Shown here: in pieces, positions 11,254 through 17,143 of the stretch | Layout: each line of letters opens with the position of its first letter | Numbering within the stretch: position 1 is the first letter of the stretch | Assembly (NCBI GenBank): GCA_023246445.1 | Contig: JAHFIJ010000004.1 | Span: 1 to 53,981 of the forward strand | Source of the DNA: Candidatus Woesearchaeota archaeon | GTDB taxonomy: Archaea; Nanobdellota; Nanobdellia; SCGC-AAA011-G17; JACQNH01 | Length of the DNA: 53,981 nucleotides | Direction of reading: 5' to 3' | Program-made: the position numbers and the translations under genes | The notes under the pieces: generated by a model | The model's database searches: none | Told to the model about the DNA's origin: nothing | Seen by the model: the letters and a program-made list of their open reading frames with translations, nothing else

Positions 11254-13647
11254 TTAAACCTCCACATCTTTAATCCCTTCTCCCGTTACCTGAAACACGA
11301 TCTCGCCTTCAGGCATAGCTGGTGCGTCTACTAATTTAGCAACTCTTGTTCCCTTCTTACCCCTTCTTAAATATAACCTATAGGTTGAATTGCTAACAAC
11401 AAACCCATTTGCTATATAATTTGTCAAACCAGGGACACTAATATCATATAAGGACTCATTGTTTTCCATCACTTTAATATTCTTAACTTTTTCCCACCTT
11501 ACTTCCCCTGAAAGAAGTTTGCCAATAAATCCAGTTTTTCTCCTGTTTTCTTCATTCAATTCTACTCCTTTCAAAGCATTAAAGATTCCCCCCAAATTCC
11601 TTCTTGAAAGAAATTTACAATTAGATGGTATTTGCTGCATGACTTCAGAAAGCTTTAAACCACAATCTTCCACGAGATTTAATAGAGCTTCTCTGGAAAG
11701 AGGTATAATATCCCTATTAATCTTGTGTGTCTCATACTCTAACAACCACTCATTCATCAGATGACGCTTATCACTCGCTGTTACCCCAATTTCTCTTGCG
11801 AAATCCACAAAATCTCTTCCTTCAAATAATAAAACTTCAGCTTCTTGCCCATCCTTTTTACTTACAGTTCTTCTGGTTGACCTAACTTTAAATCTCAACA
11901 ACAACATTTGTATATAGTTCAACACTTGCCCATTTTTTTGGGTTATAACAACTCTCGGTTTGGTTTTTGCCACATATCCTTTTGCATCCACAAAACCAAG
12001 GATAAAAGCTCTCACAACTTCCTTAGGAGATTTAGATACCAACAAGAAAAGTTTTTCTATTATCTTACTAACAAGCTCACTGATTGCCAGACTATTGACA
12101 GAAAGTTGATAGCAATTTTTGTCATTAATTTTGCTTATATTTCCATCAATATTAAACAATTCCTTGTATAACATAGAGTAATGTTCAAGAACTTCTTTTC
12201 GTTGATCTCTATATTTTAAAGATCTTTCATCAATATTCCCACCCCCGAAATGATAACCCAACAACTGGGCAAATTTATCATCCAACATTTTAGGGGCAGT
12301 AATTAGTCCATATCTATTTGTTTCATAGTTTTCAACACACTGATTTACATTTCCTTCAACACTGTGCTGAACAAGACTTTCAACAACAACTTTATCAGTT
12401 GAGTATCCTTGATTCAAAAATCTCCTAAGTTCACCCTTGATAAATTCGCTGCCGCTTTCACTAACAGTAACTAATTCTTTCTGTTCAATTACTGGAAGTT
12501 CTTGTAGTTTACCTTCAATTTCAATTGTCTCTAAATGCATTAAATAATCTCCTGCCTTAAGTTCTTTAGCTTCAACATCTTCAACTTGGAAATTATTTAA
12601 TCTAAAAAATTTATGTTTTCCAGAAGCTTTAATCTTATTACTGGTTTCAATTTCATATATTTCTTTAATATCGTCTTTCTTGGAACCATAATCACAGTAA
12701 GAAAGATTAACCTGCATCTCTCCAAAGTTAACTCCAGGCATAACAATTGGGCCTTTTAATTCCCCTACAGGCAATATCGTTCCATCTCCTAATTGTAACA
12801 ATGTATCAGCAGTGACGCAAGCATGAGCCACTACATGACCCCCAATAGCCTCTGTAGGATCTCCAAAAAACACATCTGGTCTTGCCATTACCTGATTAGT
12901 TAAATAAATTGCTATATCATGCTGCATCGCCAACTTCAGTAAAGAATGCATATGTTTATTTAATTTCTGTTGTCTATCAGCTAATTGACCCCTCCCAACA
13001 AAATCGCTTCTAAAATGTCCTGTCAATGAATCCACAATTAATAGTTTAACATTTTTTCCTTGTCTTATCAAATCTTCAACCTTTTCAGCTAACAACATCT
13101 GATGATCTGAATTAAATGCTCTTACCCCGATTAAATTTCTCAATGCATTCATCCCATCAAGCCCCTTCGCTTCTGCTAATTGCTTAACAAATTCAGGTCT
13201 TAAAGTTCCTTCAGTATCAATATAAACAACCATCCCATCAGCTCCACCCTGATCTTTAGGCAGTTGAACATTAACTGATAATTGATGAGCCAAAGAAGTT
13301 TTACCTGAGCTAAAAGCCCCAAAAGCTTCTGTTATTGCTCCCGTCTCAACCCCCCCACCTAATAAACCGTCAAATGCCTTGCTCCCTGTAGAAATTTTAG
13401 TCACACTTTCTCTTTTTTTTAATAATTCTTCACCAGTCTCAAAACCCATTCCTGCTTTTTCTCTGGCAGTATTAATCATCTTTCTGGCAACAACTTCACC
13501 AACACCACAAGCCTCGACTAATTCCCCGGGACTCGCAACTGCAACAGAAATTAGATCGTGGAATCCACCTTCTTTTAATTTTTCAGCAGTTGCAGCACCA
13601 ACACCAGGTAAATCTGCAATAGTAAATTTCTTTTCTTCTTTGCTCAT
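11254..13647 (-). CDS. radA: DNA repair and recombination protein RadA, interrupted by an intein
   Basis: Archaeal strand-exchange recombinase. N-terminal helix-hairpin-helix domain (residues 1-60, with LPGVGAATAEKL), Walker A GAFSSGKT (110-117), Walker B LLIVDS (202-207), and the L2-region RPDVFFGDPTEAIGGH. After Ala276 the reading frame enters a 477-residue intein (277-753) and resumes with STYRLYLRRGKKG (754 on), giving an excised RadA of 320 residues, the normal size. The start overlaps the stop of the upstream 87-codon gene by 4 nt, so the two are translationally coupled. A functional protein requires splicing. Confidence 0.95.
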   Translation of the reverse strand: MSKEEKKFTIADLPGVGAATAEKLKEGGFHDLISVAVASPGELVEACGVGEVVARKMINTAREKAGMGFETGEELLKKRESVTKISTGSKAFDGLLGGGVETGAITEAFGAFSSGKTSLAHQLSVNVQLPKDQGGADGMVVYIDTEGTLRPEFVKQLAEAKGLDGMNALRNLIGVRAFNSDHQMLLAEKVEDLIRQGKNVKLLIVDSLTGHFRSDFVGRGQLADRQQKLNKHMHSLLKLAMQHDIAIYLTNQVMARPDVFFGDPTEAIGGHVVAHACVTADTLLQLGDGTILPVGELKGPIVMPGVNFGEMQVNLSYCDYGSKKDDIKEIYEIETSNKIKASGKHKFFRLNNFQVEDVEAKELKAGDYLMHLETIEIEGKLQELPVIEQKELVTVSESGSEFIKGELRRFLNQGYSTDKVVVESLVQHSVEGNVNQCVENYETNRYGLITAPKMLDDKFAQLLGYHFGGGNIDERSLKYRDQRKEVLEHYSMLYKELFNIDGNISKINDKNCYQLSVNSLAISELVSKIIEKLFLLVSKSPKEVVRAFILGFVDAKGYVAKTKPRVVITQKNGQVLNYIQMLLLRFKVRSTRRTVSKKDGQEAEVLLFEGRDFVDFAREIGVTASDKRHLMNEWLLEYETHKINRDIIPLSREALLNLVEDCGLKLSEVMQQIPSNCKFLSRRNLGGIFNALKGVELNEENRRKTGFIGKLLSGEVRWEKVKNIKVMENNESLYDISVPGLTNYIANGFVVSNSTYRLYLRRGKKGTRVAKLVDAPAMPEGEIVFQVTGEGIKDVEV
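11389..12819 (-). mobile_element. RadA intein with LAGLIDADG endonuclease domain (probably degenerate)
   Basis: Starts with Cys277 (CVTADTLLQLGDG, splicing block A), has a block B-like SGKH (342-345), and ends ANGFVVSN followed by Ser754. The central part shows two LAGLIDADG-type helices: LLGYHFGGG (462-470) and ILGFVDAKG (549-557). The position that carries the catalytic Asp or Glu holds Gly469 and Lys556 instead. The usual penultimate His is Ser752, and the block F His is Thr. Splicing must still work for RadA to be made, but homing is probably lost. Confidence 0.85.
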
Positions 13648-13907: not shown

Positions 13908-14334
13908 TTTATTTTCCTCCTTCCTTTTCGGCTTTTATTTCACTTCCTAAGAAGTCACTTTTCTTTCATAGAATTTCAACCTTTTCTTTTCATGGGTTTT
14001 ATTTTCTTCAAAAGAAAAGCTTTGCTATTCGCCTTTTTTTCAGATTGAGCCTTTTTCAAAGCCCATATTACTATAAATCAAACTTATATATAAATCTCAC
14101 GCACATCTAAAATATATGTTACAGTGCGATTAAATTCCTTAAAATTCTAATAATAGAAAGCCCATAAACCTAAAACACATTGCACAGTATGCGCAGGGTA
14201 ATTATTTAAAAAAGAGGTTTAGAAAAAGTGAAAATTGAGCTTAAGTTAGTATGTATTGCGCATAACTTACAGAAAATCTTGAGATTGAGAACAACTCAAA
14301 GCTACCAATAAGAAATTTTTATTATAAATCTTAT
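13908..14334. other. Intergenic region left of the cassette segment
   Basis: No gene seen. It holds the ribosome binding site and promoter region of the radA operon (minus strand) on its left, a TATA-like ATATATAAAT at 14085-14094 (plus), and, just left of the first cassette boundary, a short inverted repeat ATAAGA (14309-14314) / TCTTAT (14329-14334) that directly abuts the GTTAAGT at 14335. The last could be part of an attI or a decayed attC; it is too weak to call. Confidence 0.4.
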
Positions 14335-14396
14335 GTTAAGTCCAATCGAGGTCGGCTCGCACGATAGTTTCAATTGAACAAGAAATTTTCGGAAGA

Positions 14397-14405
14397 TTTA
14401 AATAA
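14397..14405 (+). promoter_or_regulatory. Archaeal TATA box inside cassette 1
   Basis: TTTAAATAA centred at 14401, exactly 26 nt before the ATG at 14427, so the cassette gene can be transcribed without an integron promoter. Confidence 0.5.
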
Positions 14406-14426
14406 ACCATTAATTCAATAATAAAT

Positions 14427-14681
14427 ATGAATTGGAAAGAATTTTTTCATCCAACAAGAAAGAATGTTATTTTTGCAATCATAATATTTGTTATAATTTC
14501 TTTTATACCAATTATTCCATCTTATTGCTCTTATTTCTGTCAAGGATGTCAGGGTGTTGAATATAGACCTCTAATTGCTTCCTGTAAATTTATTCCTACC
14601 ACCTATTTAATTATTTTAATAGAAATAATAGTATCTTATACACTTTCTTGTTGGCTTGTAAGATTGTTTAGGAAAAAATAG
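14427..14681 (+). CDS. Cassette-borne small membrane protein, 84 aa
   Basis: Not recognised. Two hydrophobic segments (about residues 13-32 and 56-76) flank a Cys-rich loop with YCSYFCQGCQG (about 33-43) and a further Cys near 54, suggesting a disulfide-stabilised or metal-binding extracellular loop. The ORF lies between the two cassette boundaries and is preceded by a TATA box at leaderless distance. Function unknown; as cassette cargo it may be a defence, stress or surface protein. Confidence 0.6.
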   Translation: MNWKEFFHPTRKNVIFAIIIFVIISFIPIIPSYCSYFCQGCQGVEYRPLIASCKFIPTTYLIILIEIIVSYTLSCWLVRLFRKK

Positions 14682-14753
14682 CTCGCCGACCTTGACTTCT
14701 CCGAATTTACTTCGTAAATTCTCGACTTTTTCTTTCAGAAAAAGGGACTTAAC
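14681..14753 (+). other. 3' non-coding end of cassette 1 with stacked TTC-loop hairpins
   Basis: GCTCGCCGACCTTGA (14682-14696) is the inverted partner of TCGAGGTCGGCTCGC (14346-14360). Between it and the attC arm lie two hairpins with TTC loops: GAATTTAC/GTAAATTC (14703-14721) and CTTTTTCT/AGAAAAAG (about 14726-14744). These could act as terminators or as branches of a folded attC strand. Confidence 0.45.
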
Positions 14754-14843
14754 AGCGCTTATACGGTTCCGCCTTCGCTCTACCGCTCGGCTCCACCCCA
14801 ATTTTTCCTTCGGAAAAACTGCGTATAAGCGCATATGTTAGGC
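14747..14843 (+). other. attC-like recombination site
   Basis: R'' box ACTTAAC (14747-14753, RYYYAAC), then GCGCTTATACG (14755-14765), a 56-nt loop region, then its perfect complement CGTATAAGCGC (14822-14832), and R' box GTTAGGC (14837-14843, GTTRRRY). Order, motif identities and 97-bp size fit integron attC sites. The loop contains a further hairpin TTTTTCC-TTC-GGAAAAA. The predicted crossover is between 14837 and 14838. Confidence 0.6.
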
Positions 14844-14851
14844 GACATATT

Positions 14852-14868
14852 ACTCGGGTGGCGGTTTC
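14852..14868 (+). repeat. Left inverted repeat around the nuclease ORF
   Basis: ACTCGGGTGGCGGTTTC matches the reverse complement of 15659-15675 with a single 1-base gap. Confidence 0.7.
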
Positions 14869-14896
14869 AGAAAGTTTTATTAAAGATAACAAATAA

Positions 14897-15658
14897 ATGG
14901 TTATTATGACTCAAAAATTAATTACGCTTAAGAAAAAGTATTACATTTATCTTGATAGAAAAGCACGTCATATAGCTCATAAGTTATCAAAGAAACAAGC
15001 AGTTACAAAACTACTATTAGATTACATAAAAGAACTTTACGAATCTGCAAAAGTAGCTAATTTGCAAAATAAGCGATTTGAGTCAGCCTATCATAATCCT
15101 ATCTCCTCTGAATTGGAGTTTCTTGTCGCAAGAGTTTTATATCACTATTCAAACTTCAAAAAAACTGATTGGAAAATATACCTAAGAAGGCAGGTTGGTA
15201 AAACTGCCCCTGATATTAGAATAGAATCTAATAACAAAACTCGTGCTATTATTGAAGTTAAAGCTAAAGCTGGGTGGATTCAACCTTTCTTTTCCAAAGA
15301 AAGATATGTTAAAGATATGAAAAAATTAAGAACTGGCGAAAGTGAATCTGACCCAGGAGATTTAATCCAGAAAGTAAAAAAGCAATTGGTAAAATACTAT
15401 AAAACATACAATGTTAAACCGGAACAAGTCTTTGTATTATTACCCTCATTAAAATCAGTGCATAGAAAAAAATCCACCCAGCAGATAAAAGATTATGAAC
15501 TCCAATTCAAAAAAAACTCAGGATTGCCACAAAAAAGTTTAATTCTTTTGTCAAATAATCCCTTGTTAGATTTAAGCTCGAAACCAAGCAGAAAACAATA
15601 TCAGGTAACGAATAACTTTGAAAAATTTGTAGAATTATTAAATAAATGTTCTAAATAA
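14897..15658 (+). CDS. PD-(D/E)XK nuclease-like protein, 253 aa
   Basis: Contains the restriction-endonuclease-like core: APDIRIE (Pro105-Asp106) followed 13 residues later by the strand IIEVKAK (Glu120, Lys122), the classical PD...(E)xK arrangement. The first about 50 residues are Lys-rich and helical (ribbon-helix-helix-like segment RKARHIAHKLSKKQAVTKLL). It lies right after the attC-like site and is bracketed by a 17-bp inverted repeat, so it is the cargo of a second cassette-like unit. Likely a DNA-degrading defence or restriction enzyme. An ATG three codons downstream (14906) has better TATA spacing. Confidence 0.65.
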   Translation: MVIMTQKLITLKKKYYIYLDRKARHIAHKLSKKQAVTKLLLDYIKELYESAKVANLQNKRFESAYHNPISSELEFLVARVLYHYSNFKKTDWKIYLRRQVGKTAPDIRIESNNKTRAIIEVKAKAGWIQPFFSKERYVKDMKKLRTGESESDPGDLIQKVKKQLVKYYKTYNVKPEQVFVLLPSLKSVHRKKSTQQIKDYELQFKKNSGLPQKSLILLSNNPLLDLSSKPSRKQYQVTNNFEKFVELLNKCSK

Positions 15659-15675
15659 GAAACCGCCACCCTGAG
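15659..15675 (-). repeat. Right inverted repeat around the nuclease ORF
   Basis: GAAACCGCCACCCTGAGT (15659-15676) starts at the penultimate base of the nuclease stop codon region and is the inverted partner of 14852-14868. Confidence 0.7.
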
Positions 15676-15880
15676 TCATACGCCTTCGCCACTTCGTGGC
15701 TCGGGGGACTGCCGAATTCTGAATTACGCATAACAGCGCAGGCTGTCCCATAATTATTTTTGCCCACTCACCAGATGCCTTGTTTTGCCTTTTGGCACAA
15801 CCTTTTTTGTAAGATTAACAATCGAGCGATGTTGCCAGTATACATTTTTTGTAATTGCTGGACAGGCTGAGCGATTATTT
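15676..15880 (+). other. Non-coding end of cassette 2 with a possible degenerate attC
   Basis: Holds a perfect TTC-loop hairpin GCCAC-TTC-GTGGC (15688-15700). Then GCATAAC (15728-15734), AGCGC and AGGCTGTCC (15740-15748), whose imperfect complement GGACAGGCTGAGCG lies at 15860-15873, about 110 nt away. The left half has the TAACAGCGC string of the attC at 14747. The right half ends GATTATT where GTTRRRY is expected, so this would be a decayed or terminal attC. No gene seen. Confidence 0.35.
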
Positions 15881-15959
15881 TTAGTTTTCCTGTGAGAAAT
15901 CCCTAAATTCTTTAACAATAACTTCAAATAATCTCACTATTGTTTCCTCATACTTTCCT

Positions 15960-16079
15960 CTAATTCCTTTTCCTTTTTCCGATTTCCGATTTCCGATTGA
16001 AGTAATTCCACGACATCATTCCCAGAGGGATTATAATAGCCCATATTATTATGTCCGCTATTTCTCCAGCTGTTAACAT
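15960..16079 (-). CDS. Small membrane ORF with a 7-bp repeat, 39 aa (possibly frameshifted from 63 aa)
   Basis: ATG at 16079 with AAGGAG 12 nt upstream; the first about 25 residues form one membrane segment (EIADIIIWAIIIPLGMMSW). The frame then crosses three tandem copies of a 7-bp unit (15976-15996) and stops at 15960. If one copy is removed, the frame continues to a stop at 15881 and gives a sensible 63-residue protein ending in a helix KYEETIVRLFEVIVKEF. Either a sequencing or replication slip or a switchable gene. Confidence 0.4.
   Translation of the reverse strand: MLTAGEIADIIIWAIIIPLGMMSWNYFNRKSEIGKRKRN
15976..15996. repeat. Three tandem copies of a 7-bp unit
   Basis: TTTCCGA three times in a row; the unit length is not a multiple of three, so copy number changes the frame of the overlapping minus-strand ORF. 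Confidence 0.8.
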
Positions 16080-16129
16080 TTCTATCGTTTGCTCCTTGAT
16101 GTTGTAACCCTAAATTTATTTAAAAACCT

Positions 16130-17143
16130 TTAAGAAACCTTAACCTCAATCTCTTTAATTAAAATAGTAGGATTAACCTCTTGAACACCATTGATTATAA
16201 ATTCTTTCCTCCCAAACATCTCATTCTTCTGAACCTTCCCTATGAGCGCAAATTGTTTCCCATTAACATCATTTTTAATGGATTCAAAAGCACTAAAATT
16301 ATCTTTCAATAATTTAACCTCATCAGTATTCTTTCCCAACAACCTACCAACATTATCTCTAAAACAAGTTGCCTTTATATTATCTGTGCCATCATCGAAA
16401 TAAAAATTTAATATAGGAACCAATTCTCCCTTGACAAATCCATGCGTATTGCAAAAGCTTTTGCCCTCTTTAATCTCAACTTTTTTAGCACAATTACCGC
16501 AAGACTCATAAAACCTAGGCTCAAACACCTGCACTATAGTTCCTGAAATTTTAACGTTTATATCATTATCCATTAACTCTATAATTTTTTTATTTAATAC
16601 ATTGCTAACCTCTTGTTCCACTACATTATCAAATTTTACATTTTTAGGATTTAAATCCAATTTAGCCCCTCTCCCCAAATGAACTTCTTTTCTCCCATTA
16701 TTCTGCCTTATCATACCACCACTAACATGTAAAATCGATCCGCTCGGCATTGAACCATTGCTTATACCATCAATTAGGGTCTCATCCCACACAACAACCC
16801 TAATAGCCTGCGTATCATCCCCTGTAATTAAATTTGCAACCTTTCCCTCTCTTCCATTTTTATTATAAGATCTTATAGCATCTATCTTTAATAATTTACA
16901 ATTAAAAGCAATATTCCTCATTCCCTCTCTTAATTCCTCAATCTTAAAATCCTTTCCGCTATAATCCTCAAAAACACTTACACCCAGCTCATTAGCAATT
17001 ATATGTAAAGCGCCATGTTTGCTGATTAAATCAGACAATTTAGCCAGTTTCTCACTTACCTTAGAATTAATCTCTCCTTCATTTAAGCCCTTCTCTTTTT
17101 TTATCTTTTCCACAATTTGTTCGTATGTTAGCTGCGAAATCAT
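16130..17143 (-). CDS. Replication protein A (single-strand DNA-binding)
   Basis: Archaeal RPA of 337 aa with repeated OB-fold domains: one around residues 70-150 (NCKLLKIDAIRSYNKNG and IRVVVWDE), another around 195-300 with an inserted zinc finger (Cys215, Cys218, Cys231, His234: CGNC...CNTHG). It coats single-stranded DNA in replication and repair. The N-terminal helical part (1-60) is typical. It stands alone on its strand between the cassette segment and the pilin operon. Confidence 0.85.
   Translation of the reverse strand: MISQLTYEQIVEKIKKEKGLNEGEINSKVSEKLAKLSDLISKHGALHIIANELGVSVFEDYSGKDFKIEELREGMRNIAFNCKLLKIDAIRSYNKNGREGKVANLITGDDTQAIRVVVWDETLIDGISNGSMPSGSILHVSGGMIRQNNGRKEVHLGRGAKLDLNPKNVKFDNVVEQEVSNVLNKKIIELMDNDINVKISGTIVQVFEPRFYESCGNCAKKVEIKEGKSFCNTHGFVKGELVPILNFYFDDGTDNIKATCFRDNVGRLLGKNTDEVKLLKDNFSAFESIKNDVNGKQFALIGKVQKNEMFGRKEFIINGVQEVNPTILIKEIEVKVS

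Follow-up and report, generated by a model that had tools for sequence, protein, structure and literature searches.

An integron-type gene cassette with an attC-like site in a woesearchaeal chromosome and its probable relation to Xer-linked cassette arrays

The Candidatus Woesearchaeota contig analysed here (53,981 nt in full, referred to as the window) contains an insert between a radA gene and an 87-aa gene on its left and an RPA-like gene on its right, and this insert carries the cassette features listed in Table 1. The RadA gene itself is split by a LAGLIDADG intein (window 11254–13647). A genome of the same genus (G001) has the same gene order, with 50 bp between the matching blocks rather than the 1,982 bp of the window (14156–16137), and the cassettes are therefore an insertion either gained here or lost in the relative. 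The insert also includes ~140 bp before the cassettes and ~350 bp after them, so that its outer edges do not lie at GTT. A ~110-bp intergenic sequence (window 14080–14190) recurs in the genome at L071 2340–2220 (minus strand), in both instances just before a cassette locus. An assembly or binning artefact, with the site on a bacterial contig or in a chimera, could be suspected since the genomes are fragmented MAG-like assemblies with many sites at contig ends; this is very improbable, as the site has archaeal genes (RadA, RPA) on both sides, the relative has the same neighbourhood without the insert, and the site family is common to many genomes.

Table 1. Cassette-related features of the window (coordinates are those of the window).
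Feature	Coordinates	Strand	Remarks
5′ junction	14308..14334	.	weak inverted repeat ATAAGA...TCTTAT; right half similar to C11 attI-like site (ATAATCTTATGTT)
Cassette 1	14335..14836	+	GTTRRRY start to base preceding next GTT; ends complementary; absent in same-genus relative
Cassette 1 start, R′-type core GTTAAGT	14335..14341	+	
Cassette 1 inner inverted arm, 5′ copy TCGAGGTCGGC	14346..14356	+	arm placed as in the majority of 100 cassettes
84-aa membrane-like ORF in cassette 1	14427..14681	+	no Pfam family
Cassette 1 inner inverted arm, 3′ copy GCCGACCTTGA	14685..14695	+	one mismatch
attC-like site	14747..14843	+	R″ 14747–14753, L″ 14755–14765, L′ 14822–14832, R′ 14837–14843
Probable cassette 2	14837..15734	+	starts GTTAGGCGACATATTACTCGG
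Cassette 2 inner arm, 5′ copy	14852..14868	+	includes GGGTGGCGGTTTC
253-aa ORF of cassette 2	14897..15658	+	weak sub-threshold resemblance to NO VEIN C-terminal nuclease-like domain
Cassette 2 inner arm, 3′ copy GAAACCGCCACCC...	15659..15676	+	
Possible degraded second attC	15728..15883	+	GCATAAC + AGCGCAGGCTGTCC ... GGACAGGCTGAGCG; by eye

The attC-like site combines an R″/R′ core (ACTTAAC and GTTAGGC) with an L″/L′ stem of 11 perfect base pairs, and these elements, together with GTTAAGT at 14335, are found exactly where a sequence-only reading of the window had placed them. The GTTRRRY motif alone was rejected as evidence because it occurs at chance level (103 times in the window vs 110 expected). 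In a blind scan of the 887-kb genome, however, the stem at this site is the longest among all R″/R′ pairs no more than 180 nt apart, and the maximum in five shuffled genomes is 8 bp as against 11. The combination of R″, stem and R′ at 14747–14843 is not a product of chance.

Two covariance models were used, the first of which was built from six sites of this genome with a hand-placed structure; RNAalifold returned no structure for the initial unedited alignment, owing to a core that was out of register. The second model was built from 39 sites, all of them from other genomes, and matches the window site at 64.1 bits (E=5.5e-12, such E-values being rough), although it is not wholly independent since the first model, window site included, selected its 39 seeds. 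A hit to an attC model had been proposed as a check on the site, and this hit was obtained; the further sites looked for at the same locus were not, as the match is the only one that the second model gives in the window. Among 59 sites from this and related genomes the AAC and GTT ends are nearly invariant, both partners vary in 10 of the 11 stem pairs, and 94% of stem cells are paired, compared with 27–40% when the partners are slid. Rfam gives no match, and the attC-like model does not recognise the class 1 attCs of R388 and is thus lineage-specific.

The first model finds 15 attC-like sites in this genome, and arrays are present in many DPANN genomes, such that the window is not the single example it had been taken for. 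The same blind scan revealed a tandem pair on contig C30 (88 of 89 nt identical, 1.3 kb apart, and so, with no integrase, within the CALIN definition of two or more attC in 4 kb). Sites occur in 26 of the 103 genomes of the order and, across the phylum, in 87 of 279 genomes sampled, with 16 in G021 arranged as two same-strand arrays; such arrays are also seen on C30 and in G025, the window itself having one clear site only. When named genomes were scanned for the pattern, 99 stretches came up, most of them in Woese-, Pace-, Aenigm- and Nanohalarchaeota but some in Patescibacteria too, and no attC-core match was found in viral contigs. A second type of hairpin (GGATAAA.. stems with GTTAGGCGACA or GTTATGCGAAA) lies near array starts, oriented inversely to the array, in L022 (2946–3060), L114 and L111.

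The first nine bases of cassette 1 (14335–14343; GTTAAGTCC) are complementary to 14745–14753 (GGACTTAAC) at its far end, and its inner inverted arm is 11 bases long with one mismatch, that of cassette 2 being 13 bases and perfect. The start of cassette 2 has 21 bp in common with contig C27 (15703–15723), where the cassette site is followed by an MNT-HEPN type toxin-antitoxin pair (L038 15889–17063). The possible degraded attC at the end of cassette 2 is not matched by the second covariance model, and the window thus has one clear site and one possible degraded site to set against the two or more of a CALIN. We conclude that it contains one complete and one probably decayed integron-type cassette.

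The complementarity between cassette start and far end, already pointed out for cassette 1 alone, holds across 100 cassettes delimited by successive sites (a few loci being the same record counted twice): 3.32 of the four variable bases match between R′ and R″ of the same cassette, vs 2.02 in shuffled pairings (maximum 2.28 in 2000). The inner inverted arms of these cassettes have a mean length of 11.8 nt, vs 7.2 nt in shuffled pairings, and are typically 13–17 nt long, beginning ~11 bases after the G. The two arms can pair only when the cassette is a free circle or when the pairing spans its entire length, so the arms may help the attC of the circle to fold. The genes carried are small accessory ones (APH, GNAT, GmrSD, methyltransferase). 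Cassette genes of L093 and L094 point either way, in contrast to those of most bacterial arrays, and have their own leader regions of ~60–100 bp.

Hairpins with T-rich loops do occur between genes, and a terminator is the reading that had been put forward as capable of overturning the attC interpretation, to which a MITE-like repeat may be added. An intrinsic terminator is defined by a hairpin and T-run without further constraint, which does not describe these sites: the stem covaries between fixed AAC and GTT ends, the distant ends pair cassette by cassette, and the sites form same-strand arrays. The conserved ends and end pairing already contradict this explanation, which we reject as scarcely credible. 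That an archaeal chromosome carries an integron-type cassette and attC-like site, as originally proposed, is instead borne out by the attC anatomy, the covariation, the end pairing within each cassette, the related arrays, the archaeal flanking genes and the empty site in the same genus.

An IntI-type tyrosine recombinase had been anticipated near 14335–14843, but no recombinase gene or relic was found beside the window cassette locus. No IntI scored above the TIGR02249 cut-off in any of the 103 genomes of the order, in a search that gives 507 bits for R388 IntI1 as a positive control; the TIGR02249 matches in this genome were rejected as IntI, since they fall below the cut-off and skip the IntI-specific region. 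The recombinase linked to the sites is of the XerA type. Nine divergent pairs of a XerA-like gene and an array are present in the order, one on C11 of this genome (G000) and eight in relatives (G001 C7, G044 C87, G060 C21, G070 C26, G095 C22, G097 C12, G025 C15 and G047 C18), and the only other recombinase/attC pair within 10 kb, on G024 C1, is not divergent. Among further named DPANN and CPR contigs with both elements, all 16 have a divergent upstream site, and five of these are from CPR. A divergent recombinase with an intervening attI-like region is thus found on C11 and at about 24 other loci, and not at the window locus.

Full-length array-linked recombinases fall in one clade in 22 of 23 cases, the sole exception being L172. 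Six copies that have a contig end cutting off their upstream side also belong to this clade, which contains no other Xer protein (SH-aLRT 92; careful tree split 91/99); the five CPR recombinases form a subclade within it. The array-linked proteins are Xer-type catalytic proteins, none of which has the roughly 43-residue IntI insertion (87–91 residues in the region of the IntI-specific domain vs 133 in IntI1), and the best PDB match is P. abyssi XerA (4A8E).

By inspection, the first cassette usually begins with GTTRRRY just upstream of the recombinase gene. A dif-like palindrome before the first cassette is significant in 13 of 21 cases, examples being 13-6-13 in L183 and 11-6-11 in L194. An exact first-cassette start is present in 18 of 24, within the range of a shuffled R″ control (mean 13, maximum 19); this test does not discriminate because GTTATAT-like starts are common, and the position of attI therefore rests on inspection. 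In the window, the palindrome of the 5′ junction is not significant on its own, and the 5′ flank has ATCTTATGTT in common with the C11 site. On C12 (L023 11270–11400) a truncated 5′ end of the C11 recombinase gene and its attI-like region precede a cassette.

All the evidence on the cassette system is comparative. We propose that the cassettes are acted on by a tyrosine recombinase of the Xer family, whose gene stands beside an attI-like site on C11 and in relatives. This enzyme would cut the attC-like hairpin at G^TT in one folded strand, and the cassettes, released as circles, would be inserted beside attI or into secondary sites like the window locus. The clade Xer protein itself most likely carries out the recombination, presumably on a single folded strand, and the window cassette would have arrived by this route. 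We assign a probability of roughly 0.8 to an Xer-driven integron system as the explanation of the window cassettes, with cassette 1 as a stray cassette. Counting against it are, in the window, the lack of a recombinase at the locus, the single clear attC and the non-significant palindrome of the 5′ flank, and elsewhere the non-divergent pair on G024 C1, the position of L172 outside the clade and an exact-start count within the control range.

Alternatively, these could be ordinary orphan cassettes (a CALIN or single attC) moved in trans by the classical IntI of other organisms, the Xer genes being dif recombinases that are coincidentally nearby. Bacterial IntI1 is functional on archaeal attCs, and most archaeal arrays have no IntI (Ghaly 2022, PMC9668308), and the absence of a recombinase at the window locus fits as well, but we consider this unlikely given that the 103 genomes of the order contain no IntI, that nearly all members of one Xer clade are linked to, and divergent from, an array, and that the attI-like junctions abut the Xer gene. 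On the Xer-driven reading, the window itself is an ordinary member of the Xer-linked integron variant.

This Xer-linked variant resembles IntI integrons in the attC order R″-L″-L′-R′, the G^TTRRRY boundaries, the same-strand arrays, the divergent integrase gene and the small accessory genes, and differs from them in a recombinase that has no IntI-specific insertion and groups with archaeal XerA, in lineage-specific attCs, in cassettes with inner inverted arms and in an attI that is often dif-like. The window and C30 sites, with no integrase nearby, are CALIN-like (attC clusters without an integrase), whereas on C11 of this genome an array is linked to a recombinase gene and the window has only one complete attC. 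Archaeal XerA/dif (P. abyssi XerA) shares the recombinase sequence family and the palindrome seen in many attI-like regions, yet the recombinase here goes with cassette arrays and folding sites of 90 nt, not with a single chromosomal dif. In bacterial plasmids, pdif modules are gene modules flanked by short, double-strand Xer sites; the modules here are likewise possibly moved by an Xer recombinase, but their sites are covarying hairpins of 80–160 nt with integron core sites.

Archaeal integrons were reported in 2022, with attC arrays in Nanoarchaeota and arrays without IntI dominant (Ghaly et al. 2022, PMC9668308). A search of the open literature, with few subscription papers and preprints among it, turned up no description of arrays linked to Xer genes and none of CPR integrons. 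Cassette capture is considered to require IntI, the folded attC strand being handled by the additional domain of that enzyme. It seems fairly probable that DPANN and CPR have in common a separate integron lineage, with an Xer-type integrase lacking the IntI domain, a dif-like attI and cassettes with private inverted arms, which would explain the apparent lack of an integrase in most archaeal attC arrays. If the Xer-linked system is real, DPANN archaea and CPR bacteria would have in common a novel type of machinery for capturing cassettes; should a plain Xer-type enzyme perform the capture in both, integrons would have a second or ancestral form, and these two great groups of reduced-genome symbionts would have a common route for swapping accessory and defence genes.
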